DNA of 64,000 nucleotides from a virus (IMGVR_UViG_3300017786_003484:124001-188000), one strand, 5' to 3'; shown: positions 2,967-27,474, counted from the stretch's first letter. Numbers and translations are program-made. The notes: generated from the letters alone by a model not told the origin.

Positions 2967-3212
2967 ATGAAATGGTTTTTTATATTAATGGTAATGACAC
3001 AAAATACTCCTGTGCAAGATCACCTATACCTTATCCAAGATCCAAAGTTTAGTACTGCTCCTGAATGTTTGCAGTTTGTTAATAATCAAATACAAATGTT
3101 AAAGGCTTTACAGATGCAAAAATTTCCTACTCAGGATATTGAAAATGTATATTGTATGACTCAGGATGCTTTAGATGAATTAGTTAAAGATAGAAGTAAG
3201 AAGGACATATAA
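2967..3212 (+). CDS. Small exported protein, unknown function
   Basis: 81 aa starting MKWFFILMVMTQ, a short charged-plus-hydrophobic N-terminus that looks like a weak signal peptide. The remainder is polar with two cysteines (SAPECLQF and VYCMTQ) that could form a disulphide after export, and a lysine-rich C-terminus. No family recognised. Its stop overlaps the start of the cupin gene (TAATG), so the two belong to one transcript. Confidence 0.5.
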   Translation: MKWFFILMVMTQNTPVQDHLYLIQDPKFSTAPECLQFVNNQIQMLKALQMQKFPTQDIENVYCMTQDALDELVKDRSKKDI

Positions 3213-6957: not shown

Positions 6958-6961
6958 AAAT

Positions 6962-12146: not shown

Positions 12147-12512
12147 ATGGCAGAATATTGGGGTTATCATACACTCTTTGACTGTTTACACGGCGATATT
12201 GATAAAGTACGTTCTGGAGAAAATATTAAAAACTTCATAGAAGAACTAGTTGATGCTATCGGAATGAAAGCATATGGCGATCCTATAATTGAACATTTTG
12301 CAACACATGATCCAGATGCGGCAGGACATAGTTTAGTTCAACTAATTGAAACAAGTTCTATAACAGGACATTTCGTTGATAAAAACGGAGACCTTTATAT
12401 AGATGTGTTTTCCTGTATGGAATATGATGTACAAGTAGCACAGTCTGTTGTACAAAAATATTTTTCTCCTGAAAGAATTAGAGTAAATTACTTAACTAGA
12501 CAGGCTAGTTAA
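12147..12512 (+). CDS. speD: S-adenosylmethionine decarboxylase-like protein (SpeD family)
   Basis: 121 aa, start supported by AGGAG nine bases upstream. Family pattern in order: N-terminal WGYHTLFDCLHGD, GDPIIEHF, then LVQLIETSSITGHF, and YIDVFSCMEYD, with a final segment FSPERIRVNYLTRQ. In SpeD enzymes a proenzyme is cleaved before a Ser to make a pyruvoyl group, and the product feeds spermidine synthesis; ETSS is the likely site, and CxxYD resembles the catalytic Cys region. SpeD genes are known in T4-like cyanophages. No partner spermidine synthase is in the window, so a pathway role is inferred. Confidence 0.75.
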   Translation: MAEYWGYHTLFDCLHGDIDKVRSGENIKNFIEELVDAIGMKAYGDPIIEHFATHDPDAAGHSLVQLIETSSITGHFVDKNGDLYIDVFSCMEYDVQVAQSVVQKYFSPERIRVNYLTRQAS

Positions 12513-12513
12513 T

Positions 12514-12786
12514 ATGTCAAAGAAAAAATACCCCTTCTGGGCTAGAGCAAATCATCACTTAGATCATTCTAATATGGGATATTGGTATCACCTTTGGCAT
12601 TCGTTTTATAACGGAAGTAGACTTTTGGCATTTGTTCTAACCAGTTATATTCATGGTATTTTTCCTTGGTTGTTTAAGTTTCATGCCGCCCACGGAGTCA
12701 TTCGTATTAATGAGGAATTAAAAAGAATGCCTCATTTAAAAAAGGCAATGGACGAGATAGCAGAAGAGTATAAAAAGAAGGATTAA
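12514..12786 (+). CDS. Small membrane-associated protein, DUF6356-like
   Basis: 90 aa. Pattern MGYWYHLWHSFYNGSRLLAFVLTSYIHGIFPWLFKFHAAHGVIRI: a histidine- and aromatic-rich amphipathic start, one hydrophobic helix, then HGIFPWLF. The protein at 46968-47180 has the same plan (TYWSHLKFAWGEC...MFIHGFIPWVWDWKYSDYI), so they are paralogues. This resembles the DUF6356 family; the function is unknown. It starts two bases after the SpeD stop and is followed by the first PP-loop cassette. Confidence 0.55.
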   Translation: MSKKKYPFWARANHHLDHSNMGYWYHLWHSFYNGSRLLAFVLTSYIHGIFPWLFKFHAAHGVIRINEELKRMPHLKKAMDEIAEEYKKKD

Positions 12787-12789
12787 GTT

Positions 12790-13590
12790 TTGTCTTGGGG
12801 TAACCAAATTAAAGAGAAGGTCTCTTTCTTCCATATGAATGCATGGAAAAGAAGGCCTAATGCTAACATATTTTATAGTCCAGGAGTTGACAGATGTTTT
12901 GCAGTCGACACCTTTGATCCTTATACAGCATTTGATGTTGCTAAGATATTAAGCAGTAAAATGCCAGCCATTGCAGTAATTGTATTACATTTTGAAGATA
13001 GAACAGATGTTAATAATAGTAATGTTACAGATTTTACAATAACAGATAAACAAGTAATTGGTGGAGCCGCTGGGTTATTATTCAGTAGGCAGACTCCTGT
13101 ATTTAGAAAAATGCAAAAGCCAGTTTTAGAATTCTGTGAAAGTATGCCTTTAGATTATATGCCAGGCTCAAATGGATATAATACTTTTATGAAGTTCTCA
13201 GAATATACTAAATTTGTAATACGTTGTTGGCATGCAACAAAATTGTTTGATATGGTGCATAACTTTTTACCAATGGAAGAGTTTGCAAACGAATATCTTT
13301 CTGGAGAAGTACCAGACGATATGTGCTTACCAGCAGATAGTAGTAACACAACAACATCTGACTTAGGACCTAAAAATGAAATTCGTAGAATACTTTATAA
13401 TGCAGATTCTATAGACGAAGCAATGTCTAAGATTGCTGATATGTGGAGAAATAACAATACTCCACATTCCTTTCCTATGCGAAAGATGTTTTATGCAATA
13501 CTTAATCACCCTGACTATCCAGAACCAGAAGATTTAGGTAAGTCACAATCAGATACTGATTTAACACATTACTCAGGTTATCTATTATGA
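12790..13590 (+). CDS. PP-loop partner protein, cassette copy 1
   Basis: 266 aa, TTG start. Not a known family to me. Homologous to the protein at 25314-26048: shared FYSxGVDRxF, AKILSSKMP/IP followed by a hydrophobic strand, and a C-terminal RRILYNADSIDEAMSKIxxMW then a [18 protein letters not shown] tail. In both places the gene immediately precedes, and overlaps, a related PP-loop ATPase. The fold looks alpha/beta without a nucleotide-binding motif. Its fixed pairing suggests a subunit or dedicated substrate-carrying partner of the ATPase; this is inference. Confidence 0.6.
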   Translation: MSWGNQIKEKVSFFHMNAWKRRPNANIFYSPGVDRCFAVDTFDPYTAFDVAKILSSKMPAIAVIVLHFEDRTDVNNSNVTDFTITDKQVIGGAAGLLFSRQTPVFRKMQKPVLEFCESMPLDYMPGSNGYNTFMKFSEYTKFVIRCWHATKLFDMVHNFLPMEEFANEYLSGEVPDDMCLPADSSNTTTSDLGPKNEIRRILYNADSIDEAMSKIADMWRNNNTPHSFPMRKMFYAILNHPDYPEPEDLGKSQSDTDLTHYSGYLL

Positions 13591-14888
13591 ACTTAGATAC
13601 AAAGTTATATTACACATCAGTTAATTGGGACGGCCAGGAAGGAAATAAGTTTTGGGAGAAAACTTACGACGAAGTAGGAGCAGGAGGCAAGTTTGTAATT
13701 GACTTTGCCAGAAGAATTAATCCAAATAGATTCTCTACAAGAGATAATTCAACATGGACTCTTCCTTGGCCTGACGAGATTTTACCCAAGTACAAACTAG
13801 TTCAATACGATCCTAACTATACAGGTTCTTTTGCTGAAGCGTCAGATAGTAAAGCAATGGAATATGCTAGACGTATTGATAAGAATAATGAGAAATTTGC
13901 TATCATGTATTCCGGAGGATTAGACTCAACAATCATTACAACGGCGTTAATTAAAAATTTAACAAAAGAACAACTTAAAAACGTTTCTATCTGTACTAGT
14001 GTTCAGGCAGTAGTTGAAAATCCAAATTACTGGAGAAAGTTTATCTTTGGTAAATTTAAAATTATTGATTCGATGGTAAACAAATATGATACTTTACTAG
14101 AACTAGGATATACTCCAGTAACAGCAGATGACGGAGATTGTATTCATGGAACAGTATTAGGTTTAAACTTTTATCATGCATGGGAACAAAAGATTGGCGA
14201 AAGGTTAACAGCAGATCAGAGGGCTCATGTAAGAAACAACTTGCATAAACTTAGTGATAAAGACACACATTTTAGTGTATTTGAAGATGCATTAGTTGAG
14301 TACTTTCAGTATAGCAATACACCATGGTGGCCTGTTCCTAAGAATTTAAATCCAGATCCAATGTTTGGTCGTAAACTATACGACAAGTATGCCTTAAATG
14401 CAAAAACAGCATCTTGTCCTGTTATTAGTTTGCAAGATTTCTTTTGGTGGTTAATTTTTAATGTTAAAATGATAAACTGTGGAGTTCGAGGTGCAATGTA
14501 TTATAACGATCGTTATGATATGAATATAGCAATAAACAAGATTGAGAATTGGTACTTATGGCCAGCATATCAACAGTGGTCAATGAATAACAATAATAAC
14601 GGACAAAAAATTGGATACGGTGCTGGTACATATAAGAAAGTCGCAAGGGACTATATTTTTGAGTTAGATCAAAATATATGGTATAGAGATTTTAAGTTGA
14701 AACTTGAAAGCATGGGACAGAATAGTGTTCGTCAAAAAGTTGATACAACTGTTTACCCAAAACCCATGCATAGGTTTGGTATTACAACTGACTACAAGAT
14801 GTTAGATGTATTAGATGTAAATGTACAAGATTATATTAAGCATCATTTGTCCAAATTTGAGATTACTTGGAGTGAGGAAACAAAATGA
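13587..14888 (+). CDS. PP-loop ATPase, asparagine-synthetase-like, cassette copy 1
   Basis: 433 aa. FAIMYSGGLDSTIITTAL (SGGLDS about residues 109-114) is the PP-loop; ADDGDCIHGT about 75 residues later is a degenerate GExxDELFG motif. N-terminal GKFVIDFARRINPNRFS and C-terminal DFFWWLIFNVK, QQWSMNNNN, YKKVARDYIFELDQ are shared with the copy-2 enzyme at 26050 and partly with the enzyme at 4888. The glutaminase domain is missing. It overlaps the partner gene (ATGA) and the following GNAT gene (ATGA). Likely adenylates a carboxyl group; substrate unknown. Confidence 0.72.
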   Translation: MNLDTKLYYTSVNWDGQEGNKFWEKTYDEVGAGGKFVIDFARRINPNRFSTRDNSTWTLPWPDEILPKYKLVQYDPNYTGSFAEASDSKAMEYARRIDKNNEKFAIMYSGGLDSTIITTALIKNLTKEQLKNVSICTSVQAVVENPNYWRKFIFGKFKIIDSMVNKYDTLLELGYTPVTADDGDCIHGTVLGLNFYHAWEQKIGERLTADQRAHVRNNLHKLSDKDTHFSVFEDALVEYFQYSNTPWWPVPKNLNPDPMFGRKLYDKYALNAKTASCPVISLQDFFWWLIFNVKMINCGVRGAMYYNDRYDMNIAINKIENWYLWPAYQQWSMNNNNNGQKIGYGAGTYKKVARDYIFELDQNIWYRDFKLKLESMGQNSVRQKVDTTVYPKPMHRFGITTDYKMLDVLDVNVQDYIKHHLSKFEITWSEETK

Positions 14889-15457
14889 GAATAAAAGGTA
14901 GAGTGAAACAAGATGCTAAAGGTATGGATGTTCAAATATGGCACACAGATACCATTGGGCAGGAACCACTTTTAACAGCATCTTATTATAGAGCAACATT
15001 ATTTTTACTAGAAAAAGGTTGGGGTATGACTCCTTATGAATTAGCATCAAGTTCACATAGAGCAATATTTTTAACAACTACAACAGAACCAGAAGAATTT
15101 TTAGGTGGAGTTATTTGGGAATATCATTCTTATAACAAACAGGCAATGATTGTTTTAATCTGGACAGAGGACAAGTGGAGAGGTAGACACTTATATACTT
15201 TACTACAACACGAACTTGAAAGAGAAAGTGTAATATGCGGAGGTACTAGTATTGCAAGTATGGCTCATGCTGATAACGAGCCAAGACTAAAAGCTGGAGC
15301 AAGAGAAGGCATGTTTCCTCAATTTCATAGGCTTTATAAAGATCTAACTCCAGATCTATTTGAGAGAAAAAAGCAAATATCCGAAGAAGCCGGAAAGCCC
15401 TGGAGAGAAATTAATCGAGACAGATATAAATTAGAATCTCGTATGACAACAAAATAG
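14885..15457 (+). CDS. GNAT-family N-acetyltransferase-like protein
   Basis: 190 aa. LGGVIWEYHSYNKQAMIVLIWTEDKWRGRHLYTLLQHELE is the GNAT core: a central beta strand, then the WRGRHLYTLL loop-helix that binds acetyl-CoA pyrophosphate, followed by ADNEPRLKAGAREGMFPQFH as the last helix-strand. It would transfer an acyl group to an amine. It is coupled by ATGA overlap to the cassette-1 PP-loop ATPase, so it may act on the same product. Substrate unknown. Confidence 0.65.
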   Translation: MRIKGRVKQDAKGMDVQIWHTDTIGQEPLLTASYYRATLFLLEKGWGMTPYELASSSHRAIFLTTTTEPEEFLGGVIWEYHSYNKQAMIVLIWTEDKWRGRHLYTLLQHELERESVICGGTSIASMAHADNEPRLKAGAREGMFPQFHRLYKDLTPDLFERKKQISEEAGKPWREINRDRYKLESRMTTK

Positions 15458-15458
15458 G

Positions 15459-15487
15459 TTGACAGCAGTATTCTAATAGTGTATTAT
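15459..15487 (+). promoter_or_regulatory. Sigma70-type promoter for tRNA-Arg
   Basis: TTGACA (15459-15464), 17-nt spacer, TATTAT (15482-15487). The -35 starts two bases after the stop codon of the GNAT gene. Start of tRNA-Arg is 20 bases downstream of the -10. Confidence 0.7.
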
Positions 15488-15506
15488 AACGAACAATTTG
15501 GAATAA

Positions 15507-15583
15507 CTGCCCTTAGCTCAGCTGGATAGAGCAACTGCCTTCTAAGCAGTAGGTCGCAAGTTCGAATCTTGCAGGGCAGGCCA
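15507..15583 (+). tRNA. tRNA-Arg (anticodon UCU)
   Basis: 77 nt: acceptor CTGCCCT/AGGGCAG, D-arm GCTC/GAGC, anticodon stem ACTGC/GCAGT with loop CTTCTAA (TCT), T-arm GCAAG-TTCGAAT-CTTGC, discriminator G and encoded CCA. Reads AGA, by far the commonest Arg codon in the neighbouring genes. Confidence 0.95.
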
Positions 15584-15599
15584 AATGCAAGGATTAATA

Positions 15600-16259
15600 A
15601 TGTCTGAGAAAAGAATACTAACATTTGAAGAGACAGAGCGAGATCAAAAATTACACGTTGACTGGGTTTTAGAAAAAACAAATTTTAAAAGAAATGGCTT
15701 CTTTGTTGAAATGGGTGCAGTTGATGGCATCAGACTGAGTAATACATTAACATTAGAACGAGATTATAATTGGTCAGGAATCTTAGCAGAGCCTGATCCA
15801 AGACATCACGAAAGCCTAAAAAACAATAGACCTGGTAGTAGTATTGAGTTTGATTGTGTTTGGGCAAACTCTGGAAAAACAAAAACATTCTTTCAATCTA
15901 AAAAAATTACAGATCAACGCAGTACACTTTCAGATTTTGCAGAAGAAGGCGATGCAAAAGAAATTCGAAAAAAATGGCCTACATTTGATGTTAAAACTAT
16001 AAGCCTATTAGATATGCTTGATAAGCATAATGCACCAAAGTATATAGACTATCTTAGCCTTGACACTGAAGGTAGTGAATATCAAATTCTTAGAACTTTT
16101 GATTTTAGCAAATACAAGTTTGGATTGATTACAGTAGAGTGGAATCATCATAAAAGAAGAGGACAACGTATCTGCGATCTTCTAACATCTAATGGTTATT
16201 ACATACCTGAAGACTCGAAAGACATATTTGAATTTGACTATGCATTTGTTAATAAATAG
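15600..16259 (+). CDS. FkbM-family methyltransferase-like protein
   Basis: 219 aa from the ATG at 15600, chosen for the AAGGA seven bases before it (an ATG at 15585 lies right behind the tRNA). NGFFVEMGAVDGIRLSNTLTLER is the AdoMet-binding motif of FkbM-type methyltransferases (F.DvGa..G..SN.....), followed by WSGILAEPDP, KTISLLDML and IDYLSLDTEGSEYQIL (DxEGxE), the classical FkbM signature. These enzymes methylate sugar or peptide hydroxyls. Probably cotranscribed with tRNA-Arg. Confidence 0.85.
   Translation: MSEKRILTFEETERDQKLHVDWVLEKTNFKRNGFFVEMGAVDGIRLSNTLTLERDYNWSGILAEPDPRHHESLKNNRPGSSIEFDCVWANSGKTKTFFQSKKITDQRSTLSDFAEEGDAKEIRKKWPTFDVKTISLLDMLDKHNAPKYIDYLSLDTEGSEYQILRTFDFSKYKFGLITVEWNHHKRRGQRICDLLTSNGYYIPEDSKDIFEFDYAFVNK
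16251..16258 (+). promoter_or_regulatory. T4-late-type promoter box, 5 nt before ATG
   Basis: AATAAATA followed by GTGGT and the ATG at 16264. It overlaps the end of the methyltransferase gene. Geometry predicts a transcript beginning at the A of the ATG. Confidence 0.5.
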
Positions 16260-16263
16260 TGGT

Positions 16264-16626
16264 ATGGAAGCCGTTTTTCTTTTCTTATTAATATTCAAAC
16301 ATGCCATAGTAGACGTTGGACTACAAAGACACTTGGGTGTACAAAAGAAACACCAATGGCTTAGCCCTAAAGCCCAAATACATTATCTAAGTCACGGTGC
16401 TGGTACTTTTATAGTATTAGTGACACTTGATCCTGCTCTAGCATTAATTGCTGGATTATGTGATTGGATTGCACATTGGCATATTGACTTTACAAAAACT
16501 AACATTAACAACAAATACGAACTAAACAATGCAGATTATGCTTATTGGTGGCTCCTTACTATTGATCAATTATTGCATTACACAACATATTTTCTTATAA
16601 TATATTTTATATTTTTGAATCTTTAA
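16264..16626 (+). CDS. DUF3307-like membrane protein
   Basis: 120 aa from the ATG at 16264; an in-frame ATG at 16192 would overlap the methyltransferase gene by 68 bases and is less likely. Hydrophobic segments with conserved-looking polar residues: FLLIFKHAIVDVGLQ, IHYLSHGAGTFIVL, DWIAHWHIDFTK, TIDQLLHYTTYFLIIYF. The His/Asp pattern in membrane helices matches the DUF3307 family, seen in phages and bacteria, function unknown. A second member is at 34375-34761. Confidence 0.65.
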   Translation: MEAVFLFLLIFKHAIVDVGLQRHLGVQKKHQWLSPKAQIHYLSHGAGTFIVLVTLDPALALIAGLCDWIAHWHIDFTKTNINNKYELNNADYAYWWLLTIDQLLHYTTYFLIIYFIFLNL

Positions 16627-16637
16627 ATGTCTAGTTT

Positions 16638-16674
16638 ATCCTTTATTTTGGTAAATATTGACGTTATAAAGGAT
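16638..16674 (+). promoter_or_regulatory. 9-bp inverted repeat covering the lipase ribosome binding site
   Basis: ATCCTTTAT (16638-16646) pairs perfectly with ATAAAGGAT (16666-16674), whose AAAGGA is the Shine-Dalgarno of the gene at 16682. The 19-nt loop is AT-rich. Suggests translational control, similar in idea to the hairpins at 699-745 and 54529-54549. Confidence 0.5.
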
Positions 16675-16681
16675 TTAAAAT

Positions 16682-17464
16682 ATGCTATCAGAAATGGATT
16701 TTAAGGAGCAATCTCATCTATTTTCGCTCCTAGCGGGTATCGCTTACAAGGATGAAAAACAAGCCACTAAAGAATACAAGAGTCACGGTTTTACTCAAGT
16801 TAAATTTGTTGATGTTGATTCAAGTCAGGCATATGTTATCTGGAACACGAAAGATCTAGTTATATGCTGTCGAGGAACTGAACCAACTGAATTTAAGGAT
16901 ATTGCCGCTGATGTTAGATGTTTTTTAGTTCGGCCAGCTACAGGTCAAAAAGGAAGAGTACACAAAGGATTTAAAGTAAGTGTTGATAGAATCTGGCCTA
17001 GTATTACAAGCACATTAAAATTAAAAAAACAAAAAGTATGGGTTTGTGGACATTCATTAGGAGGTGCTATGGCATGCCTAATAGGAAATCGTTTCCACGA
17101 AATAGAAGACTTACCTTTGGTTGAAGGAGTATTTACTTACGGAGAACCACGGTCAGGTAATAAAAAGTTTGTCAACCATAGTCTTAGTGTACCGCATATT
17201 AGGTGGGTTAATGGTGCTGATATTGTGCCTAAGGTTCCACCGGATATCCTAAACCGATATAAGCATCACGGAGATTTACATTATATGAACCATTGGGGTA
17301 ATGTAAGAACTATGACATATTGGCAAGCAGTAAAGGATCAATGGAGAGGATTTTGGAAAGGAATTGTAAGAGGTAAAATCAATTTTTTTATCAACCACAG
17401 CATTGATAGATATCAAGCAAATTTAGAACGTTATAAGAACGGCGACGAACGCCCTCAAATATAA
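16682..17464 (+). CDS. Class 3 lipase-like alpha/beta hydrolase
   Basis: 260 aa. Lipase_3 features: LVICCRGTEPTEFKDIAADV (the oxyanion RGT strand), VWVCGHSLGGAMA with nucleophile Ser125 in GHSLGG, FTYGEPRSGNKKF, WVNGADIVPKVPP with the catalytic Asp, and INHSIDRY with the catalytic His. No signal peptide is seen, so it acts in the cytoplasm or is released at lysis. It may hydrolyse membrane lipids during infection. Translation may be restricted by a hairpin over its ribosome site. Next gene follows after 19 bases. Confidence 0.85.
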   Translation: MLSEMDFKEQSHLFSLLAGIAYKDEKQATKEYKSHGFTQVKFVDVDSSQAYVIWNTKDLVICCRGTEPTEFKDIAADVRCFLVRPATGQKGRVHKGFKVSVDRIWPSITSTLKLKKQKVWVCGHSLGGAMACLIGNRFHEIEDLPLVEGVFTYGEPRSGNKKFVNHSLSVPHIRWVNGADIVPKVPPDILNRYKHHGDLHYMNHWGNVRTMTYWQAVKDQWRGFWKGIVRGKINFFINHSIDRYQANLERYKNGDERPQI

Positions 17465-17483
17465 AGCAAAGGTAATTCATTAA

Positions 17484-19019
17484 ATGGAACAATCAGAAAC
17501 AGGCAACAAAGATACTGGTGCATCAGCATCAGCAGAAGCAGAGGCTCATGCCGAAGCAAACGCCCACGCAGGAACAGAAGTCACTGATTCAAGTGTTAGT
17601 GCAGAAGCAGGAGCCCATGCAGAAGCAGGAGTATCCGCTGGTGCAGATGGCGAAGCTCATGCAACTCAAGGAGCATTGAGTGAAACTGCCGAAGGTAGTG
17701 CCGGTGTTAGTGCAACTGCTGAAGTAACTGCAGAAGCATATGCCGGAGCAGGGTTTGATGGTAGCGACGCTAGTATTGGAGCAGGTGCTATGGTTGAAGC
17801 AAGAGCAGAAACAGAAGCTCATGTAGATGGTAGTGCAGAAGCCACAGTTGATGCTGGACCATTAGGAGATGTTACTCTTGCCGGAGCAGAAGGCGAAGCT
17901 CATGCTGGAGCATATGCAGAAACTCATGCCGGTGTAGAAGCTCATGCAAGTGTTGGAGAACATGGTGTTGATGTTGGCGGTGGAGCAATAGCAGGCGCAA
18001 GCACAGGAGTTGATGCTGGTGCATCAGGTACAATAGACACTCCAATTGGATCAGTTGGCGGAGAAGCCGAAGCAGGAGTTAGTGTTGGTACACAAGTAGG
18101 TATAGAAGGCGAAGGTCATGCAACAATGAATGATGGTGTTGCAAGTGTAGGTGTTAGTGGCAAGGCCGCAGTACTAGCAGGAATAGATGCAGACTTAAAT
18201 GTTGAAGTTGATCTCAATCCAATTCTTGATATTAGTAAATGTACATATAATGTAATTACTCATCCAAACGAAGCAATTTCTGAAGCTAGAAATATTATGT
18301 CTGATGCAGAAAAACAGGTAGACTCTGCAATGGCCAATGCTGAAAAAATGAAGAATGCAACTATTAAAGCCGCAAACGATGAAGCAGACAGAGTTAAGAA
18401 AGAAGCAACCAGAGAACTAAAAGCAACAGAAGAACATTGTCAAGGTGTAATTGCTGGTGCTCAAAGAGCTCTAAATGAAGCCGCTGAAGAAACAGCAAGA
18501 CTGGCGGCCGAACAAGCACAGAAAGCAAAAGAAGCCGCTGAATTGGCCGCAAAGCAAGCCGCGGATCAAGCACAGAAACAGGCCGCTGAAGCCGCCCACA
18601 GAGCTGAAATGGTTAAGCAGAAAGCCGCTGAACAAGCCGCTAAAGCACAAGCCGAAGCTCAACGTGCCGCAGAGTTAGCTCAACAGCAAGCACTTCAAGC
18701 TCGTAGACAAGCAGAAGCACAAGCACAAGCCGCCGCAAATGCCGCTCAAAGATCTGCAAATGCCGCAAAGGATGCCGCTAAAAAATCTGGTAGAAAGATT
18801 AAGAAATTCTTTAGTGATATTAGAGTAAAAGAAAATATTAAATTAGAGAACGTTGATGCTGTTACAGGACTTTCATGGTATTCATATAATTATGTTTGGG
18901 ATAGCGAAGTAAGACAAACAGGTGTTATGGCTCAAGACTTATTAGGTACAAAATATCAAGATGCTGTTAGTGTCCATCATGGACATTTTGTAGTTGATTA
19001 TAGTAAACTTCCTAACTAG
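17484..19019 (+). CDS. Repetitive Ala/Glu/His/Gly-rich protein with C-terminal S74-type chaperone domain
   Basis: 511 aa. Residues about 1-250 are a low-complexity array of AxAxAHAEA-type repeats with Gly turns; about 270-445 is an Ala/Lys/Glu-rich helix, almost certainly a long coiled coil (AEQAQKAKEAAELAAKQAADQ and similar); residues about 450-511 hold SDIRVKENIK, GLSWYSYNY, TGVMAQDLLG, AVSVHHG and VDYSKL, the pattern of the Peptidase_S74 intramolecular chaperone found at the end of phage tail spikes and fibres. This looks like a fibrous virion or surface protein. The chaperone is short, so self-cleavage is uncertain. Confidence 0.7.
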   Translation: MEQSETGNKDTGASASAEAEAHAEANAHAGTEVTDSSVSAEAGAHAEAGVSAGADGEAHATQGALSETAEGSAGVSATAEVTAEAYAGAGFDGSDASIGAGAMVEARAETEAHVDGSAEATVDAGPLGDVTLAGAEGEAHAGAYAETHAGVEAHASVGEHGVDVGGGAIAGASTGVDAGASGTIDTPIGSVGGEAEAGVSVGTQVGIEGEGHATMNDGVASVGVSGKAAVLAGIDADLNVEVDLNPILDISKCTYNVITHPNEAISEARNIMSDAEKQVDSAMANAEKMKNATIKAANDEADRVKKEATRELKATEEHCQGVIAGAQRALNEAAEETARLAAEQAQKAKEAAELAAKQAADQAQKQAAEAAHRAEMVKQKAAEQAAKAQAEAQRAAELAQQQALQARRQAEAQAQAAANAAQRSANAAKDAAKKSGRKIKKFFSDIRVKENIKLENVDAVTGLSWYSYNYVWDSEVRQTGVMAQDLLGTKYQDAVSVHHGHFVVDYSKLPN

Positions 19020-19027
19020 GAATTTTT
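19009..19027. terminator. Short hairpin between convergent genes
   Basis: TTCCTA (19009-19014) and TAGGAA (19017-19022) followed by TTTTT, located where the S74 gene and the minus-strand gene converge. The stem is short (effective 4-6 bp). Confidence 0.35.
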
Positions 19028-19713
19028 AGGTTGGCCCATGGTTGTTGAAATCTTATTGATAAAAGCAATCGTGGGCTTTTACCATCCCAATTAATAGAAT
19101 GTAAGATATCAGTTCTAACAAAAGAAGATTCTTGATTTAACTTGGCTAAAGTATTGCATTTGAAATCCGGATCTCCTAATAATTTATATTGTCCAGCTCT
19201 ACTTTTTTCAGCACCACCTTTGGCTTGTAAACGTTTAGCAGGAACACCATTAGGTCTTGGAAATTCAGCAACACGAACCTTCCAATGATCTCTATCACAA
19301 TTCCACCAAAACATCTCTTGGTCTTCGTCGCCATTTAATAAAACATTAAAGCGAACTGGTATATCATATTTGTCTCCGGTATATCTATCAGGACCAGTAG
19401 TATCAATATGTGGATTACCACGAGGATCTTCTAAAGGTTCGTTAAGTGACTTATAAATGAAGAAATTTACCTCTCCATCTTCTAGTCCATATGTTTTTGT
19501 AAAGGCATTAATTTCAGCATATGCTTTTGACTCTTTCCAAGCCTGTATCATATCAGGTTCCGGTGTTATTAATGCCGCTGAAAGAGGAGCATTATCTTGG
19601 TAGTCTTGAACCATTGGTTTGGTTATTTCCTGAGCCCACGACCAGGCTTCAGGTGAAAGTTTAAAAGAAACGGTTAAATAAGGTTGCTCCATACCAATAT
19701 TTATGGTTGACAT
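19012..19713 (-). CDS. HxD-motif oxygenase-like protein
   Basis: 233 aa. GNPHIDTTGPDRYTGD (HxD), DIPVRFNVLLNGDEDQEMFWWNC (RxN strand), and FVRTDILHSINWDGKSPRLLLSIRF with the distal His and Arg. Same plan as the proteins at 1468 and 10199. The W-W-N-C and W-W-K-T strands after RxN are shared between this protein and the one at 10199. Fe(II)/2OG-type beta-helix fold inferred, substrate unknown. Its start codon region overlaps the promoter of the divergent tRNA-Gly. Confidence 0.62.
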   Translation of the reverse strand: MSTINIGMEQPYLTVSFKLSPEAWSWAQEITKPMVQDYQDNAPLSAALITPEPDMIQAWKESKAYAEINAFTKTYGLEDGEVNFFIYKSLNEPLEDPRGNPHIDTTGPDRYTGDKYDIPVRFNVLLNGDEDQEMFWWNCDRDHWKVRVAEFPRPNGVPAKRLQAKGGAEKSRAGQYKLLGDPDFKCNTLAKLNQESSFVRTDILHSINWDGKSPRLLLSIRFQQPWANLKIPS

Positions 19714-19735
19714 TATAGATAATATACCATATAAT
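19707..19735 (+). promoter_or_regulatory. Consensus sigma70 promoter for tRNA-Gly
   Basis: TTGACA (19707-19712), 17-nt spacer, TATAAT (19730-19735): both boxes match consensus perfectly. The tRNA begins 10 bases later. The -35 box overlaps the first codons of the divergent minus-strand gene. Confidence 0.8.
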
Positions 19736-19745
19736 AGTAAAATAA

Positions 19746-19819
19746 GCGGGTATTGTGTAGTGGTAAGACCTTAGCCTTCCAAGCTAATGACAGGAGTTCG
19801 ATTCTCCTTACCCGCTCCA
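19746..19819 (+). tRNA. tRNA-Gly (anticodon UCC)
   Basis: 74 nt: acceptor GCGGGTA/TACCCGC, short D-arm, anticodon stem TTAGC/GCTAA with loop CTTCCAA (TCC), T-arm GGAG-TTCGATT-CTCC, discriminator T and encoded CCA. Reads GGA, common in these genes. Confidence 0.94.
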
Positions 19820-19835
19820 ACTATGAGGAATAAAA

Positions 19836-20114
19836 ATGATTGGTTCAAAAGATATAGTCCATATTGATGTGGGCATTGATAAAAGAGAAGGCAAATGGCT
19901 AGGAGAATGGACACCTAAGAATCCTGATGCTGTCGCACAATTATATAATGAGGAGCCTTCAACTCATCATATTACAGCCAACAGGCGTGAGGAACTTGAA
20001 CGTAAACTTGAGAAAGCATTACGTCTTGCTTTTCCTAAAGCAAATTATATAGTTCAGCATCGTGAATCGTTGACAGAAGCACAAGATCCTTTAACAGGTT
20101 ATATCAATGCGTGA
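19836..20114 (+). CDS. Small protein, unknown function
   Basis: 92 aa, AGGAA ribosome site directly behind tRNA-Gly. Begins with strands IVHIDVGIDKREGKW and then a long charged helix (NRREELERKLEKALRLAFPKA). No family recognised. The end overlaps the start of the next gene by eight bases, and both are probably transcribed with the tRNA. Confidence 0.5.
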   Translation: MIGSKDIVHIDVGIDKREGKWLGEWTPKNPDAVAQLYNEEPSTHHITANRREELERKLEKALRLAFPKANYIVQHRESLTEAQDPLTGYINA

Positions 20115-20373
20115 TACCAACCATGAAAAGATAGGTATTAGGATAATGCGTTCTTTAATGGGATGGTTGATGGTATTTGGTACAATTGGTTTACTTCTAG
20201 GTTCTCAAATTTGGGTATGGGAAAATTATAGTGCCACTCCTGGATTATTGGTACTATTTGAAGGTTTATGGTGTATTGGATCTGCTATATTTTTAGGTAT
20301 AATCGTATCAGCCGCTGAAAAAAGTTTACCTTTAGGCAAAATTAATTTACAACCTCTTGATAAACAAGACTAA
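20107..20373 (+). CDS. Small two-helix membrane protein
   Basis: 88 aa with two hydrophobic segments (about residues 18-37, LMVFGTIGLLLGSQIWVW, and 47-66, LFEGLWCIGSAIFLGIIV) flanked by polar ends. No family recognised. Overlaps the upstream gene; followed by a sigma70-type promoter for the next operon. Confidence 0.5.
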   Translation: MRDTNHEKIGIRIMRSLMGWLMVFGTIGLLLGSQIWVWENYSATPGLLVLFEGLWCIGSAIFLGIIVSAAEKSLPLGKINLQPLDKQD

Positions 20374-20400
20374 TTTTTCCTACTATTTTCAACAAAAAGG

Positions 20401-20429
20401 TTGACCTTTGGGCCTGTTTGTCATATACT
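20401..20429 (+). promoter_or_regulatory. Sigma70-type promoter, member of a near-identical family
   Basis: TTGACC (20401-20406), 17-nt spacer, TATACT (20424-20429). From GGTTGAC to TTAGG it is almost base-for-base the same as the promoter at 32517. Drives the LPD29-like gene at 20470. Confidence 0.78.
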
Positions 20430-20469
20430 GTATATAATAAGAAATTAGGTTAATTAGGAGATACATTAT

Positions 20470-20982
20470 ATGGCTTATTTAAGTGCAAAAGATACCCAAG
20501 CAATTAGAAAAGAACTTAAAGTACAATTTCCAGAGTTTAGATTTAATGTTAGCAAAAGATCAGGTGGTGCCTGTATTGTAACTATAACAAGCGGTCCTAC
20601 TGATTTCTCAGATATTTACAGACAAGATGCATATGGAGATGACGGCTATTGTCAAGTTAATGTTTATCATATAAAAGGAGACAATTATAATAAGCATACA
20701 GAATTCTTAGCAGATGTTCTTAACGTGATTAAAACTGCTCCTGCAAAAGGAGAAGGTTTTCATAAAGGTAGAGGTTGGTTTGATGAGTCAGATAGTATGT
20801 CTGACTATTTCCATACTGCTTTTTATATTGATTTAAACATTGGACAATACTCAAAGCCTTATGTGCAAAGTGGTTGTGCAAAAAAAGCTCCTACTAAAGA
20901 AGTAAAAACTTTAGAACAATTAGTTGGTGCTGAAATGGCTTCAACCTTAAGAGAACTTGCAATGGTTAAGGAAAACGTATAA
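20470..20982 (+). CDS. LPD29-like protein
   Basis: 170 aa. Starts AYLSAKDTQAIRKELKVQFPEFRFNVSKRSGGACIVTITSGP, closely following the pattern of the 'large polyvalent protein-associated domain 29' (xYLSxxETAKLxRxxLKxxFPxxKFSVRxxxxx-hydrophobic strand-GP). The second half has GRGWFDESDSMSDYFHTAFYIDL. LPD29 occurs in phage and plasmid proteins with unknown role. Has its own promoter and overlaps the lipoprotein gene start (TAATG). Confidence 0.6.
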   Translation: MAYLSAKDTQAIRKELKVQFPEFRFNVSKRSGGACIVTITSGPTDFSDIYRQDAYGDDGYCQVNVYHIKGDNYNKHTEFLADVLNVIKTAPAKGEGFHKGRGWFDESDSMSDYFHTAFYIDLNIGQYSKPYVQSGCAKKAPTKEVKTLEQLVGAEMASTLRELAMVKENV

Positions 20983-21941
20983 TGAATATTAATTTTAAAA
21001 ATATTGCATTAGCAATTACTTCGGTAGCAGTTCTTAGTGCATGTCAAACAACTAATTCACTAGCAGTTAATAACGAAACATCTGCTATACAGTATGATGG
21101 TAAAGCAGTTACTAATAATAATGTATCTGTTATGCCTGGATATGCTCATTATATGAAACTAAATCCTTTGAAATCTCAAATTCCAAGTTATGACGGTAAA
21201 GGTTTACTTGCCGCAAGTTGGAATCCTTCCGATGATGTTGCTAATAATCCAACTATTGTTATAATGCATGGTGGACATGGCGTTGGTAGCGGTATGTGGA
21301 TTAAAGCAAGAGATCTAAAGCAACGTATTAATGCCAACGTATTACTTCTTGATAGTTTTATGTCACGTGATATGCCTAATAATTGGGATAGAGGTGTAGA
21401 AGCTGATGCAATCGTTCGTACATTTGATGTTATTGCAGTTGGTAAATGGTTAAAGACACAAGGGTCTGATCCTAGCAAAACTTATATGATGGGCGGTTCA
21501 CAAGGTGGATGGACAACTCTTAAGGCAATGTCTGCAGGAGCAACTCAACTTGCTGAAGTAAAGCCTCTTTATGCAGGTGGTATTGCATACTATCCTGTTT
21601 GCGACAACTACAATCGTAATGGTAACCTAAGAGCAGGACAACGATTTGTTTCGTTAGCAAAGAATGGTTTCTGGGGACCTGTACTACTTCTAACTGGTGA
21701 TGAGGACTATGCTACTCGTATTGAAGATTGTCAACAGTCTGTAGTTGAACATGCCACTAAGCATGTTAGGTTTGAAAGAGGAACACATGGTTGGGAAATC
21801 CGTTGGAGAGAAAACGGAGAGATGAACAAGGATGGTTCTTGTAAGTGGTCTGGTAACAAAAACTTTAAGATGTGTTATGATGCCAAGCACACTACTGAAA
21901 TGTATATTGAAATGACTAAATTTATAAATGGAGCAAAATAA
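20982..21941 (+). CDS. Secreted lipoprotein alpha/beta hydrolase
   Basis: 319 aa. N-terminal signal with lipobox VLSAC (Cys21), so it is lipid-anchored outside the cytoplasmic membrane. Alpha/beta hydrolase motifs follow: VIMHGGHGVGSG (oxyanion loop), YMMGGSQGGWTTL with Ser173 as nucleophile, LLLTGDEDYATR (acid), and RGTHGWEIRW (His). Resembles dienelactone-hydrolase-type esterases. Coupled by TAATG to the LPD29-like gene and to the beta-lactamase-like gene after it. A phage-encoded periplasmic or outer-membrane esterase is unusual; it may alter the host envelope. Confidence 0.8.
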   Translation: MNINFKNIALAITSVAVLSACQTTNSLAVNNETSAIQYDGKAVTNNNVSVMPGYAHYMKLNPLKSQIPSYDGKGLLAASWNPSDDVANNPTIVIMHGGHGVGSGMWIKARDLKQRINANVLLLDSFMSRDMPNNWDRGVEADAIVRTFDVIAVGKWLKTQGSDPSKTYMMGGSQGGWTTLKAMSAGATQLAEVKPLYAGGIAYYPVCDNYNRNGNLRAGQRFVSLAKNGFWGPVLLLTGDEDYATRIEDCQQSVVEHATKHVRFERGTHGWEIRWRENGEMNKDGSCKWSGNKNFKMCYDAKHTTEMYIEMTKFINGAK

Positions 21942-23074
21942 TGAATAGTAAATTTATATTTGGTACCTTAACAGTTTTAACAACTGTTTGGGTTGTTTCG
22001 GGTGTTGTACAAAGTGCATTAGCAAAAGAAGCAAAGGTAAACGTTGTCCGTACTACAGGAGGCAATGCAGTAGAGTTTCCTAACGTTCATTTACAAAGTG
22101 GTATGGGAAGAAACCTGCTTCAACCTTTCAATGAAGAACTGCAAACAACACATGACATAAAATCAGCAGACAGAGCTCAACGAATGATGGAACGAAACAG
22201 TTCAGCTCTTACTGGATTATTAATTAATAAAGGACGTATTGTATTTGAAGGTTATAGAGAACCAGCTAGGCGCAATAGCAAAATGCATAGTATGTCAATG
22301 TCAAAGAGTCTAACTGCTCTTGTAATTGGTAACCTATATTGTGACGGCAAGATCAATAGCCTCGATGATAAAGCAGTAAAATATGCTCCTCAATTAGAAG
22401 GAACTCCATATGGAGATACTTCAATCCGTAATCTACTAATGATGGCTAGTGGTATAAAGAAGCTTGGCAGTCACGGACAGCCTAAACATAAAACTTATGT
22501 TAGGATGAGGAATCAGCGAGCAACTGGATTGTTTATGCTAAAAGGACACACAAGACAATATGAAGAAGGAACCAATCATCTTTATAACTCAGGAGATACA
22601 TTAGCATTATCTCAAGTAATGGAGTCAATGGGAGGACTAGTTAATAACTTTAATTTTTATATTTGGTCTAGGATTGGTACTGAAACAGGTGGATCCTGGA
22701 TGGTGGATAAACGGGGTCAGCCAATTGCCTTTGCTGGATTTAATGCAAGTCTAAGAGACTGGGGTAAACTTGGAATGTATACAATAGATATGGTAAAAGG
22801 CCGAGGCGGTTCGTGTATGCAAGAATTTGCTACAGACATGAACTCTAAGCAAATTAGGAATGAGAGGCGTCCGGGAGAAGCAGGAAGAGCATTCTCGCAC
22901 TATGGTTACCAAACTTGGATTATGCAAAATGGAAATGCATGGTGGATTGGCTATGGCGGACAACGAGTAGGATTAAATTTTGAATTAGAAAAAGTAATGG
23001 TAGTACATAGTTACATTGAAAACTATATGACTGAAGCACATGACGTGTTTAATTATTTTGCAGATTGGGATTAA
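21941..23074 (+). CDS. Exported serine hydrolase, class C beta-lactamase-like
   Basis: 377 aa. N-terminal hydrophobic signal (FIFGTLTVLTTVWVVSGVV, then SALA for cleavage). MHSMSMSKSLTALVIG contains SxxK (Ser119-Lys122), and NHLYNSGDTLALSQ is the second Tyr-containing motif of beta-lactamase/esterase-type serine hydrolases; YGYQTWI and WWIGYGGQR form the C-terminal substrate strand. Closest in look to 6-aminohexanoate-dimer-hydrolase-type amidases/esterases rather than true AmpC. Together with the preceding lipoprotein it forms a pair of extracytoplasmic hydrolases. Confidence 0.78.
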   Translation: MNSKFIFGTLTVLTTVWVVSGVVQSALAKEAKVNVVRTTGGNAVEFPNVHLQSGMGRNLLQPFNEELQTTHDIKSADRAQRMMERNSSALTGLLINKGRIVFEGYREPARRNSKMHSMSMSKSLTALVIGNLYCDGKINSLDDKAVKYAPQLEGTPYGDTSIRNLLMMASGIKKLGSHGQPKHKTYVRMRNQRATGLFMLKGHTRQYEEGTNHLYNSGDTLALSQVMESMGGLVNNFNFYIWSRIGTETGGSWMVDKRGQPIAFAGFNASLRDWGKLGMYTIDMVKGRGGSCMQEFATDMNSKQIRNERRPGEAGRAFSHYGYQTWIMQNGNAWWIGYGGQRVGLNFELEKVMVVHSYIENYMTEAHDVFNYFADWD

Positions 23075-23343
23075 TGGAAGAAGTTTTAATAAAAATATTA
23101 AACATGGGAGACCCTGATGACTGGGATTTATATGCCAACTTAGCAATAGGCGAATGGACCAAGTCAGATGAATATGCAAAAATTAAAGCATATGGATTAA
23201 CGGCTCAATCCTACAAGTACTTAGAACAAAATAGCTGGGGAGGTGATTATAATCTCTCCGGCTGTGGTGTATATTGCTTAGATTATGATCCTAAAGATCT
23301 TATGATGGCAAAATTAGCAGGTGTAATTCCACATTACGGTTAA
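23074..23343 (+). CDS. Small protein, unknown function
   Basis: 89 aa from the ATG overlapping the upstream stop (TAATG). Contains MGDPDDWDLYANLAIGEW, then YLEQNSWGGDYNLSGCGVYCLDYDPKDL with two cysteines four residues apart. No family recognised. Last gene of the 20470-23343 operon. Confidence 0.5.
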   Translation: MEEVLIKILNMGDPDDWDLYANLAIGEWTKSDEYAKIKAYGLTAQSYKYLEQNSWGGDYNLSGCGVYCLDYDPKDLMMAKLAGVIPHYG

Positions 23344-23395
23344 ACCTGCAACTTATTCGACAGTAAGTAATTTATTAAACAAAAGGAGGAACAAT

Positions 23396-24001
23396 ATGTT
23401 CTCATTTAAAGACGTAGATAAAAGTATGCTATTAAAACTAGTAGCATTACATGTTTTAGTTATTGTAGTTAGTAATGCCTTAGTTAGTATTCCAGTTGAA
23501 ATTTTTGGTGTTAAACTAACATGGGCGGCATTTACTTTTCCACTAGTGGTATTAGCAACTGATTTGACAGTACGACTATTAGGAAAGGAAATTGCTCGAA
23601 GTACAATTACCGCGGCATATCCGCTGGCTATTATTGGATCTATTCTAGTAGTACTAGCAGAAGGTGCTCCTACAAGTGTAGCACTTCGTATTGGTTTTGC
23701 CAGTGCAACAGCCTATGCAGTAGGTACAATGCTTGACGTATATGTATTCCAACATATTAGAGAAAAGTTAGTAGACAACTGGTGGTTAGCACCGGCTGTA
23801 TCAACAGTAGCCGCTAACGTTATTGACACTTATGCATTCTTTGCAGTAGCCTTTCACAATTCAGCAGACGAGTATATGTCAGCAAACTGGATGGAAGTAG
23901 CAGGTTCGCAAGTCATAATTAAGATTGCAGTAGGACTAATTGTCTTCCTACCAGCTTATGGTGTATTACTAAGACACCTTAAAAATAAAGTAGAAGGATA
24001 A
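23396..24001 (+). CDS. VUT-family (YhhQ-like) queuosine-precursor transporter
   Basis: 201 aa with five to six membrane helices and a strong AAAAGGAGG ribosome site. The succession PVEIFGVKLTWAAFTFPLVVLATDLTVRLLGKEIAR, GFASATAYAVGTMLDVYVFQHIR, WWLAPAVSTVAANVIDTYAFFAVAF is the VUT/YhhQ signature (FPl.f..tDl, G...D.......R, s.lD...F..iaf). YhhQ imports preQ0/preQ1 for tRNA queuosine; phage YhhQ proteins are linked to 7-deazaguanine DNA modification. A QueC-like enzyme is at 59395, but no DpdA/TGT is in this window. Confidence 0.85.
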   Translation: MFSFKDVDKSMLLKLVALHVLVIVVSNALVSIPVEIFGVKLTWAAFTFPLVVLATDLTVRLLGKEIARSTITAAYPLAIIGSILVVLAEGAPTSVALRIGFASATAYAVGTMLDVYVFQHIREKLVDNWWLAPAVSTVAANVIDTYAFFAVAFHNSADEYMSANWMEVAGSQVIIKIAVGLIVFLPAYGVLLRHLKNKVEG

Positions 24002-24005
24002 ACGT

Positions 24006-24689
24006 ATGAGCTTAAATACAGATGGTTTATTTTTAGCACCAGCTAATCCTCAACTGTCAAAGTATGATGGGGTTAAACTTCCTCCGTTAGTTATACCGGA
24101 CGGAAGTGGCCCCTGGGCTCTGCGATATATCTGGGTAAAGCATAAAACTAAAAACGATGAATTTGTAAAAAATTATTTTAACAAAGGAAATAATGCAACA
24201 GGTTCCGGACTAAATTTAAGAAAACAAACATCTCACATGAAAGAGACAGCATGGAATCCTCATAACAATATTTTTGATACTAGCAGAGAAAACGGTAACT
24301 TGATTTGGAGAGTTAAAGTACATAATCATTTAGCCGATACGATTGATTATATTGAGATATGGCGTAGCAAAGAAATTATTAAAGAAACATTTGGTGTTAA
24401 AAAAGGCGACACTACAAAAAATGATGTTCCTGTAACCGAATCAGAAAGTAAATCAGATTTAGCAAGATCTGCAGAAGAAATTATTACATTAAGAAAAGGA
24501 TTAGAAGAAGCAGGTTTTGAGCCAAGAGCTTGGTCTACCTTTCCTAATGTCCATCCAATTGTTGCAATGAGATGGTATCTTTACTTTTTAGACAGACGAA
24601 ATGGAAATAAGCAATGTGTTATAAACACACCTTATAATAAAAAATTAAACGATTGGGAACCTTTTAAAAATAACAAAGGAGTTAATTAA
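24006..24689 (+). CDS. Phage protein, unknown function
   Basis: 227 aa, AAGGA ribosome site. It is not recognised. N-terminal third rich in Pro and aromatic residues ([20 protein letters not shown]), a polar middle with [17 protein letters not shown], a Ser/Asp/Lys-rich linker (about residues 135-155) and a helix-rich end with [19 protein letters not shown]. No signal peptide or cysteine cluster. Placed between the YhhQ-like transporter and clpP; the next gene starts one base after its stop. Confidence 0.5.
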
Positions 24690-24690
24690 A

Positions 24691-25317
24691 ATGGCACTTG
24701 TACCTATGGTAGTAGAAAAGACCTCTGAAGGAGAAAGAGCATACGATATCTATAGTCGTTTGCTTAAAGAAAGAATTGTTATGGTTGAAGGAGTAGTAAA
24801 CGATAACATGGCTAATTTAATTGTTGCACAATTACTTTACCTTGAGGCAGAAAACGATAACGATATTACAATGTTTGTTAACAGTCCAGGCGGATCAGTT
24901 ACTGCTGGCTTAGCAATTTATGATACTATGCAATTTATTGGTTGTGATGTTGCAACTTATGCTATGGGCCAAGCATGTTCTATGGGATCAGTATTAGCAA
25001 TGGCAGGTGCAAATGGAAAGAGATATGTATTGCCTAGCTGTCGTACAATGATTCATAGAGTTAGTTCTGGAACACACGGAACAAGCGGAAGTGTTCATGT
25101 ACAAGAATTACAGTTTGAAGATGCTATTCGTAGTATGGAAGAATCTAAAAAACTTAACGAACGTTTAACTCAACTATATGTTACCCACAATACAAAAGGT
25201 AAGACATATGATCAGATGTTTGAAACTATGAAGTTTGATACTTTTCTTGACGCCGCCGCAACTGTTGAATTTGGACTTGCAGATAAAGTTATTGCAAACA
25301 GGGCTGATGTAAAATGA
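24691..25317 (+). CDS. clpP: ATP-dependent Clp protease proteolytic subunit
   Basis: 208 aa, the usual length. The catalytic triad is complete: Ser97 in GQACSMGSV, His122 in MIHRVSSG, Asp183 in [27 protein letters not shown] is the conserved handle region. ClpP forms a double-heptamer chamber that degrades proteins delivered by ClpX or ClpA in the cytoplasm. ClpX (52844) and ClpS (55090) are encoded elsewhere in the window. It is translationally coupled (ATGA) to the second PP-loop cassette. It may have its own start within a longer operon from 23396. Very confident family call. Confidence 0.96.
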
Positions 25318-26048
25318 GTATAATGACTGAACAAGGTTTAAAGGAACTAGTCGCTAAACAAGATACTTTAGGTAGAGTTCCTTTTGATGGTAGTAGATTT
25401 TATTCAGCAGATGCAAACTACCTTATATATTCTGTTGGAGTAGACAGATTTATATTATCTGATAGACTTGATCTATGGACTACATTAGAAACTGCTAAGA
25501 TACTTTCTTCAAAGATTCCATTAACTTTAATTGCACTCACAAACTGTAGTAAAGATATTAACAACGAAAATTGTTTGTTTTATACAGTATCTGAGAAAAC
25601 TGGTTGGAAGATGTCTGAGAATGCATGTCCAGAATTAGGTGCAGTATCAGGCGAGGATGCAGTAGAAGAGGCTGGCATTGCTTTAGACTTTAAAGATCCT
25701 ATTAGTGCTAATTGGTTAGTTAACTTACAAAACTATGCATTCTTTTGCCAGAGGATATTACATGCAATTAGAATTGCTGATGCTGAAACCAATTCAGACG
25801 ATGCAGTATTTTTCAAAGAGTTACTAGATCACGGAATTGCGGCAGTATTACAATCAAGAGCTGATCATACAAGAACTCCGCAAGGAGCATTACTTTGGAC
25901 TAAAAGGGTACTATATACTTCAAAGAATATTGACGAAGCAATCAGTGGTATTAATAAGATATGGGATAGCAGGGTACTTAGAGATAAAGATATAAGAGAT
26001 AGATTTTTTGAGTATTCAGGATTACCTTTTAATCCTGGAGACAATTAA
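25314..26048 (+). CDS. PP-loop partner protein, cassette copy 2
   Basis: 244 aa. Homologue of the protein at 12790-13590: [51 protein letters not shown] and GLPFNPGD line up with the copy-1 regions; the middle diverges. No named family. It overlaps clpP by four bases at its start and is followed one base after its stop by the copy-2 PP-loop ATPase, so gene order partner-then-ATPase is kept in both copies. Likely a subunit or carrier for the ATPase. Confidence 0.6.
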
Positions 26049-26049
26049 T

Positions 26050-27474
26050 ATGTCTGAAAATTTTACCCATGATACTTTTAGTACTGAGCAATATTATTAT
26101 GATGAACAGGCAAGAAAACATCCTACAACGGTAGCAGTTAAGTCTAAACTACCAAAAGCAAAAGTAACATCTTCTGGCTTAAAAGTAGGAGATAGTTTAT
26201 TTCATCATGGTATAACATGGAATGTAAGAACAGAAGAAATATACACTCCAATATATAATGATTTGCCATTAGCAGGAAAATATCATGTTGACTTCGCAAA
26301 GCAGTTTACATATAATAGATTTTCTCCTAGGCACGGTCATTGGGCTCAACCTTATCCTGTAATTCCTTTACCAGAATTAGCTATGCCGTCTTTTGATCCT
26401 AATCACAATAAAACATGGACAGAATGTACAGATGAAAGAGCTCAATGGGTTAAGGCTTTATTAGAAAAAGAGTCCAATCGTAAAATTGCATTATACTATT
26501 CAGGTGGAATTGATAGTTTGGTTGTTCTTATTGCATTACTAAAAGCATTAGATACGAAAGAACTCCGTTCACGTTTAACTATTTGTTGCAGTATGGAAAG
26601 TGTAATTGAATATCCTGTTTTCTTTGAAAAAGAAGTGCTTGGAAAATTTAAGATTATAGATCTTAAAATGGGTACTGTTCGTTTTAATAATTTAATCAAT
26701 GAAGGATATACAGTTATTACAGCCGACTTAGGTGATGCTATGTTTGGAACTGAAGTGTCTACACAATTTTATTATACTTTTAGGAACCATGCTGAACGTT
26801 TAGGTTTTCAAGGAAGAAAAATGGTATCTGATTTACTTGAAGATATAGGTAAACCAGATGCACACTATTCTGTTTATAAAGATGTTTTAATTGCATATTT
26901 AGAAACTCCAAATGTTTATTCTATGCCAACTAAAAGTAGAGAGAATATATTAACACCAGGCTTTGGAGAATGGTATTATAATAAACTAGACAAATTAGCA
27001 CAGACATCTGATTATACGGTTCATAGTTTACATGATTTCTTTTGGCAGATTATTTTTAATGTTAAATGGATGCATTGCTCATGTCGTTGTTTTATGTTCT
27101 TTGGTGACCATACTAATAACAAACCATTGTTTCAACATAAACGGTATATAAACTGGTTTCAGTCTGATGATTATCAACGTTGGTCTATGGTTAATAACAA
27201 TACAGGACAAAAGATTAAAGGTGTAACTGCTTCTACATATAAGTGGGCGGCCAGAGAATACATATACGATTATACAAAAGATGAATGGGCATTATATTTT
27301 AAACTTAAGATTGCATCTTTTCAAAAGATTGCTCCTGTTCACAGTTATCCACATGCTATGGACATTATAGATAGATTTGCTTTAAACACAGATTATACTG
27401 TAGTTCGTCATAGCGATCCTGGAGTGATTGATTATATACATCATCACCTTTTTAACTACAATGACTTACTCTAA
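26050..27474 (+). CDS. PP-loop ATPase, asparagine-synthetase-like, cassette copy 2
   Basis: 474 aa from the ATG at 26050; a TTG at 26008 would overlap the partner gene. IALYYSGGIDSLVVLIAL (SGGIDS about residues 151-156) is the PP-loop; ADLGDAMFGTE matches the position of GExxDELFG but has lost the Glu. Shared with copy 1: YHVDFAKQFTYNRFS before the loop, HDFFWQIIFNVKW, YQRWSMVNNNTGQKI, YKWAAREYIYDYTKDEW after it. No glutaminase domain. Probably a carboxyl-adenylating ligase of unknown substrate. Confidence 0.72.
   Translation: MSENFTHDTFSTEQYYYDEQARKHPTTVAVKSKLPKAKVTSSGLKVGDSLFHHGITWNVRTEEIYTPIYNDLPLAGKYHVDFAKQFTYNRFSPRHGHWAQPYPVIPLPELAMPSFDPNHNKTWTECTDERAQWVKALLEKESNRKIALYYSGGIDSLVVLIALLKALDTKELRSRLTICCSMESVIEYPVFFEKEVLGKFKIIDLKMGTVRFNNLINEGYTVITADLGDAMFGTEVSTQFYYTFRNHAERLGFQGRKMVSDLLEDIGKPDAHYSVYKDVLIAYLETPNVYSMPTKSRENILTPGFGEWYYNKLDKLAQTSDYTVHSLHDFFWQIIFNVKWMHCSCRCFMFFGDHTNNKPLFQHKRYINWFQSDDYQRWSMVNNNTGQKIKGVTASTYKWAAREYIYDYTKDEWALYFKLKIASFQKIAPVHSYPHAMDIIDRFALNTDYTVVRHSDPGVIDYIHHHLFNYNDLL

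Follow-up and report, generated by a model that had tools for sequence, protein, structure and literature searches.

What does a phage gain from carrying several copies of one two-gene cassette, and what do the two products do together? The window analysed here, a stretch of 64,000 nucleotides (bases 124001-188000 of a 244,432-base (244-kb) T4-like virus record encoding a T4-type gp23 capsid protein), contains two cassettes in which a gene for a protein of no recognised fold, here called the partner, precedes a gene for a PP-loop ATPase. In the first, partner 1 (12790-13590, plus strand; 266 aa, TTG start, type c0) overlaps by 4 bases the gene for ATPase 1 (13587-14888, plus strand; 433 aa), which has an asparagine-synthetase-like core without a glutaminase domain; in the second, partner 2 (25314-26048, plus strand; 244 aa) is followed by ATPase 2 (26050-27474, plus strand; 474 aa), with its ATG at 26050. 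All four open reading frames (ORFs) lie where the preliminary description of the locus put them, in the same order. The partners share 26% and the ATPases 36% identity, and because a search with ATPase 1 matches ATPase 2 at E = 5e-78, the resemblance of the two cassettes is not due to chance. The sequence motifs reported as common to both cassettes are present as listed, except that partner 2 reads IYSVGVDR and not FYSxGVDR.

That the cassette occurs twice holds for the window, but not for the record, which carries a third close pair and remoter variants. The third pair, located outside the window at about 197-199 kb of the record, has the same gene order and four-base overlap (partner, L009 10232-11002; ATPase, L009 8964-10235; both on the minus strand), and its products are closely related to those of pairs 1 and 2. 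Profile searches of the whole record recovered exactly 3 type c0 partners and 3 long ATPases, always adjacent, besides 3 shorter ATPases, 2 of which are adjoined by small proteins of one further family. A remoter cassette overlooked in the preliminary description opens with a c2 partner-like protein (3865-4569; 234 aa), followed by a SET-domain protein (4571-4888; PF00856) and a PP-loop ATPase (4888-5979; 363 aa) of the same family as ATPases 1-3, all on the plus strand. Just before it lies a cupin gene (3212-3865, plus strand; PF07883), whose family also includes the cupins that adjoin the PP-loop gene in type c1 phage loci and on bacterial chromosomes. A second remoter cassette lies outside the window (L008 14420-15058 / 15049-16086 / 16079-16798). 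Further PP-loop proteins are encoded at window positions 6016-6957, 6914-8272, and 59395-60021 and at L011 562-1890; 2 of these are QueC-like (phrog_1550), and the record total then comes to about nine PP-loop proteins.

The ATP-site motifs of the ATPase are intact. Among 135 family members, the SGG and D of the SGGxDS nucleotide-binding loop are present in all 135 and the final S in 134, and in the model of ATPase 1 (pLDDT 93.8), where a strand (103-107) is followed by a helix (112-124), the loop closes the first core strand, as is characteristic of the PP-loop ATPase superfamily. A GExxDxxF motif, also found at residue 348 of Escherichia coli AsnB, occurs at a fitting distance after the SGG in 120 of the 135 members and was not found in QueC, TilS, GuaA, or NadE. 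Three lysines are similarly conserved (K350 in 134, K370 in 132, and K372 in 131 of the 135), with a spacing close to that of AsnB K430-K449. The conserved AsnB lysine is catalytic. Only about 100 residues precede the P-loop of ATPase 1, the N-terminal Cys-2 glutaminase domain is absent by both Pfam and the secondary structure of the model, and the partner fold matches no glutaminase domain in comparison with the PDB. At the level of motifs, the earlier view of the protein as an asparagine-synthetase-like core without glutaminase is borne out.

More general comparisons are less favourable and weigh against the amide-forming function that we propose below. ATPase 1 scores 13.9 bits against the Pfam Asn_synthase profile (PF00733), below the cut-off of 21, and no match of its model in the PDB reached E 0.001; the longest alignments, to carbapenam synthetase, human asparagine synthetase, beta-lactam synthetase, and E. 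coli AsnB, get no better than E 0.013 and TM 0.28, all of them weak values, and the matches also include LarE and others. Sequence searches against solved structures covered the P-loop region only, as did profile alignment to six E. coli PP-loop enzymes, in which TilS and QueC scored above AsnB. The ATPase is predicted to work like an asparagine-synthetase-type enzyme, yet we do not assign it to Asn_synthase, because the Pfam score lies below the cut-off and the profile comparison did not favour AsnB. The high rank of TilS and QueC in that P-loop-restricted comparison, the annotation of the relatives in Pseudomonas phage Cygsa01 as MnmA in GenBank, and the separate QueC-like genes of the window would fit a role in tRNA or DNA base modification like that of TilS, QueC, and MnmA, with the partner binding nucleic acid. 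We regard this as very unlikely, given that the pattern of GExxDxxFG plus lysine is AsnB-like and was not found in place in those families, and that no nucleic-acid-binding domain was detected.

The partner offers fewer points of comparison. An AlphaFold2 model of partner 1 built from 58 homologues is confident (pLDDT 84.7, pTM 0.86), and Foldseek returned no match for it in the PDB (best E 2.3, TM at most 0.25), in agreement with the preliminary description, in which the protein had no recognised fold. Its only convincing matches in BFVD are two uncharacterised proteins of uncultured phages; the sequence gave nothing significant in Pfam, PHROGs, NCBIfam, or PADLOC, or against solved structures. 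As judged from the model, the fold is apparently new. No profile link was found between partner groups c0, c1, and c2, and since no such link or other sequence link to c0 was found, c1 and c2 are called partners by their position: that they do the job of c0 is inferred from the shared place in the gene order.

Is the partner dedicated to the ATPase? We scanned IMG/VR with the ATPase profile and retained the best 80 of 286 relatives. Across IMG/VR, a partner-size ORF (195-285 aa) lies directly upstream of 85 of the 92 non-identical PP-loop genes, overlapping it by 4 bases in 41 of those 85. In one exception (L049), the partner lies approximately 1.8 kb upstream, with GNAT-like and desaturase-like genes intervening; in another arrangement, a single ORF (L071 3-1814) joins a possible partner remnant, a collagen-like GPT repeat, and the PP-loop domain, the partner-like stretch of this ORF, which is without its N-terminus, having a single-sequence E of 7e-5 but only 8.7 bits. 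The converse search, which the preliminary description had proposed as a check, used the partner profile as bait in IMG/VR and recovered 14 loci, 14 of 14 with the ATPase, rather than partner homologues standing mostly alone. Eight loci (L066, L070, L074, L079, L081, L089, L090, and L096) carry tandem arrays of 2-3 pairs; what follows these arrays is, by eye, a small T4-DsbA-like gene and not tail genes.

Partner and ATPase lineages also track each other. For 64 pairs with partners in one BLAST-linked group (c0), the tree distances of the two proteins correlate at r = 0.957; random permutation of the pairs gave a correlation of at most 0.22, and swapping paralogues within a record reached the observed value in 0 of 999 trials. 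Partner and ATPase duplicate and diverge as units. Constant pairing, every partner locus found having an ATPase, and co-evolution together support the prediction of a dedicated two-component enzyme, as the preliminary description had suspected. Two overlapping genes, many copies, patchy distribution, and tandem arrays might also mark a cassette that has spread by duplication as a selfish or conflict element, either toxin-antitoxin or anti-defence; we consider this highly improbable in view of the conserved enzyme core, the large size of both genes, the co-occurring biosynthetic genes, and the PADLOC result, a noise match of 13 bits only. A known anti-phage defence system was likewise discarded as an identity for the pair, PADLOC giving no match for the partner and only those 13 bits for the ATPase.

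The system is not confined to phages. When 50,697 GenBank phages were searched with ATPase 1 and partner 1, nothing matched, and Cygsa01 was recovered only with a short-type ATPase as the query. The description of the cassette as a phage system holds in that it is present in many phages, but bacterial chromosomes also contain relatives, with a cupin gene as a frequent companion: 41 of 52 bacterial-genome relatives are adjoined by a c1 or c2 partner or a cupin. Many PP-loop genes in bacterial chromosomes are accompanied by the cupin while a recognised partner is missing; across the wider ATPase family, the partner is therefore not universal, a distribution that counts against the two-component reading. 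No description of the partner and PP-loop pair was found in the literature searched.

The genes coupled to the cassettes bear on the substrate. As previously noted, cassette 1 is coupled to a gene for a GNAT-like protein (14885-15457, plus strand; 190 aa), which overlaps ATPase 1, and cassette 2 to a ClpP-like protease gene (24691-25317, plus strand), which overlaps partner 2 by 4 bases, an arrangement repeated in the relative L061. The GNAT-like protein has no significant Pfam match and is identified from the preliminary description and sequence reading; its family was found in 22 loci and abuts or overlaps the ATPase in about half. Upstream of cassette 1 are genes for an S-adenosylmethionine (SAM) decarboxylase (12147-12512, plus strand; phrog_3125), found at the same position in L018, L019, and L032, and for a conserved 90-aa protein (12514-12786, plus strand), which stands directly upstream of the type c0 partner and precedes the partner in 12 loci. 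The complete block (SAM decarboxylase, 90-aa protein, partner, PP-loop ATPase, and GNAT) recurs in four loci, and solute receptors of the TRAP and TctC types lie near cassettes in 22 and 18 loci, respectively. Combined with the cupins that accompany the ATPase in bacteria, this context could signify a small metabolite such as a polyamine or amino-acid conjugate, with the decarboxylase supplying the amine, the GNAT capping it, and solute-binding proteins importing the precursor. This possibility is distinctly doubtful: most cassettes are without the SAM decarboxylase and GNAT, and each paralogous pair would need its own substrate.

The surroundings of the cassettes hold a variety of other genes. 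Several TctC/TRAP solute-receptor proteins are encoded in one phage (window 8269-9189; L008 4759-5838, 8178-9308, and 9503-10441), as are a Gram-negative porin (15-683; Porin_4, E 7e-17), an aspartyl/asparaginyl beta-hydroxylase-like protein (749-1471; PF05118, E 3e-13), several other ORFs that by eye resemble 2OG oxygenases, and a serine beta-lactamase-family protein (21941-23074; PF00144, E 1e-16). Genes for tRNAs are scattered among the cassettes (Thr-TGT, 2864-2939; Arg-TCT, 15507-15583; Gly-TCC, 19746-19819). A run of probable radical SAM genes occupies 35093-43250 and 60021-62532, most of them recognised by sequence reading and one (35093-36637) backed by Pfam and PHROGs; a carbamoyltransferase gene (44166-45647) lies near this run.

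Surface glycans are another candidate substrate, and an unlikely one. The ATPase would amidate or N-acylate uronic-acid-type sugars of the lipopolysaccharide (LPS) or capsule, by which the infected cell would shut out competing phages, and the partner would be a glycan-recognition subunit. A carbamoyltransferase, an FkbM methyltransferase, and, by sequence reading, several probable glycosyltransferases share the island with the cassettes, and LPS genes abound in the host-recognition clusters of pelagimyophages (PMC7029224). The 244,432-base record yielded neither T4 neck nor VrlC-like families, so the window is not placed in such a cluster. Against the glycan reading, neither a sugar nucleotide nor a glycan-binding domain was found in the partner, and the tail module that houses the pair in Xanthomonas-type prophages showed no glycan genes.

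In these prophages, the genes run from Baseplate_J and Mu gp48 through one for a tail-fibre-like protein, whose long C-terminus is rich in Pro, Thr, and Ala, to the c1 partner and then the PP-loop gene. Fibre-like proteins with poly-Pro or Pro-Thr C-termini are encoded directly before the partner in L077, L083, L086, L091, L092, L094, and L111-L113, and all 9, which are closely related to each other, end in a glycine (GG, DG, or QG). The order in a Polynucleobacter prophage is S74 tail fibre, radical SAM protein, c1 partner, PP-loop ATPase, and cupin, and in Cygsa01, two PP-loop genes directly follow a long-tail-fibre gene and a gene for a Gly-rich protein. An S74 protein is encoded nearby in the marine loci L067-L069, of which L069 also encodes a large protein of phrog_358, a family likewise present beside the Cygsa01 PP-loop genes. 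L071 lies near neck genes. In the window itself, a protein that combines Ala/Gly/Glu-rich repeats with a C-terminal Peptidase_S74 domain (17484-19019) is encoded between cassettes 1 and 2, 2 kb after the GNAT-like gene of cassette 1, and is kept in close relatives. Such neighbourhoods in several unrelated phages suggest that tail fibres may be the substrate. Tail-fibre regions are, however, hot spots where unrelated phage genes commonly insert, and the pairs in tandem arrays lie away from tail-fibre genes; both points tell against a link to fibres.

We propose, with somewhat less than even confidence, that the pair is a two-component ATP-dependent amide-forming enzyme with a dedicated new-fold partner and that the paralogues serve different substrates. 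The ATPase would use ATP to activate a carboxylate as an acyl-adenylate and pass it to ammonia or an amine, yielding an amide, whereas the partner, presumably in a physical complex with the ATPase, would most likely select or position the substrate or complete the active site; where a single genome has paralogous pairs, these would be versions with different substrates. Adenylation and transfer are proposed by analogy, because asparagine-synthetase-like enzymes convert peptide C-termini to amides or nitriles and also close lasso peptides (PMC13060819). As the substrate, we prefer a protein or peptide of the phage over a surface glycan or a small molecule, and tail fibres are the leading candidate. 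The more specific version, in which paralogous ligase and adaptor pairs modify carboxyls of the phage's own fibres or adhesins (perhaps the C-terminal glycine), one fibre per pair, is rather unlikely. If the enzyme is as proposed, a widespread, unnamed, amide-forming two-component system, frequently present in multiple copies per genome, occurs in some bacteria as well as in prophages and marine phages. It would extend the asparagine-synthetase-like repertoire to phages and could indicate that host-recognition proteins are modified after translation; the fibre reading, if true, would add a layer of protein chemistry to host recognition.

By prediction from sequence, the pair belongs to a real, widespread, and unnamed two-component enzyme family. 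The cupin and PP-loop gene pairs of Lewinellaceae, Tenacibaculum, Bdellovibrio, and other bacteria have the same PP-loop family as the phage pairs and the same cupin family as window 3212-3865, but often no recognised partner, and the only names that Pfam, NCBIfam, and PADLOC have for them are Cupin_2 and the like. QueC, LarE, and TilS, all weak matches, have the PP-loop nucleotide site in common with the phage ATPase; E. coli QueC and TilS are without its GExxDxxFG, and their similarity is confined to the P-loop region. Asn_synthase (PF00733), the beta-lactam and carbapenam synthetases, and the lasso-peptide cyclases share both SGGxDS and GExxDxxFG with the phage ATPase, which also has conserved lysines with AsnB-like spacing, but differs from AsnB-type enzymes in having no glutaminase domain, in its very low sequence similarity, and in the separate partner almost always encoded upstream. 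In TsrC, ScdTA, AsnO, and PesC (peptide C-terminal amidases and a nitrile synthetase; PMC13060819), asparagine-synthetase-type ATP chemistry acts on peptide carboxylates. The hydroxylase-type enzyme (PF05118) also encoded in the window is a further likeness to these systems; a difference is that no precursor-peptide gene was seen by eye around the cassettes. Compared by description, the phage pair is set apart from them by its new-fold partner and its phage setting.
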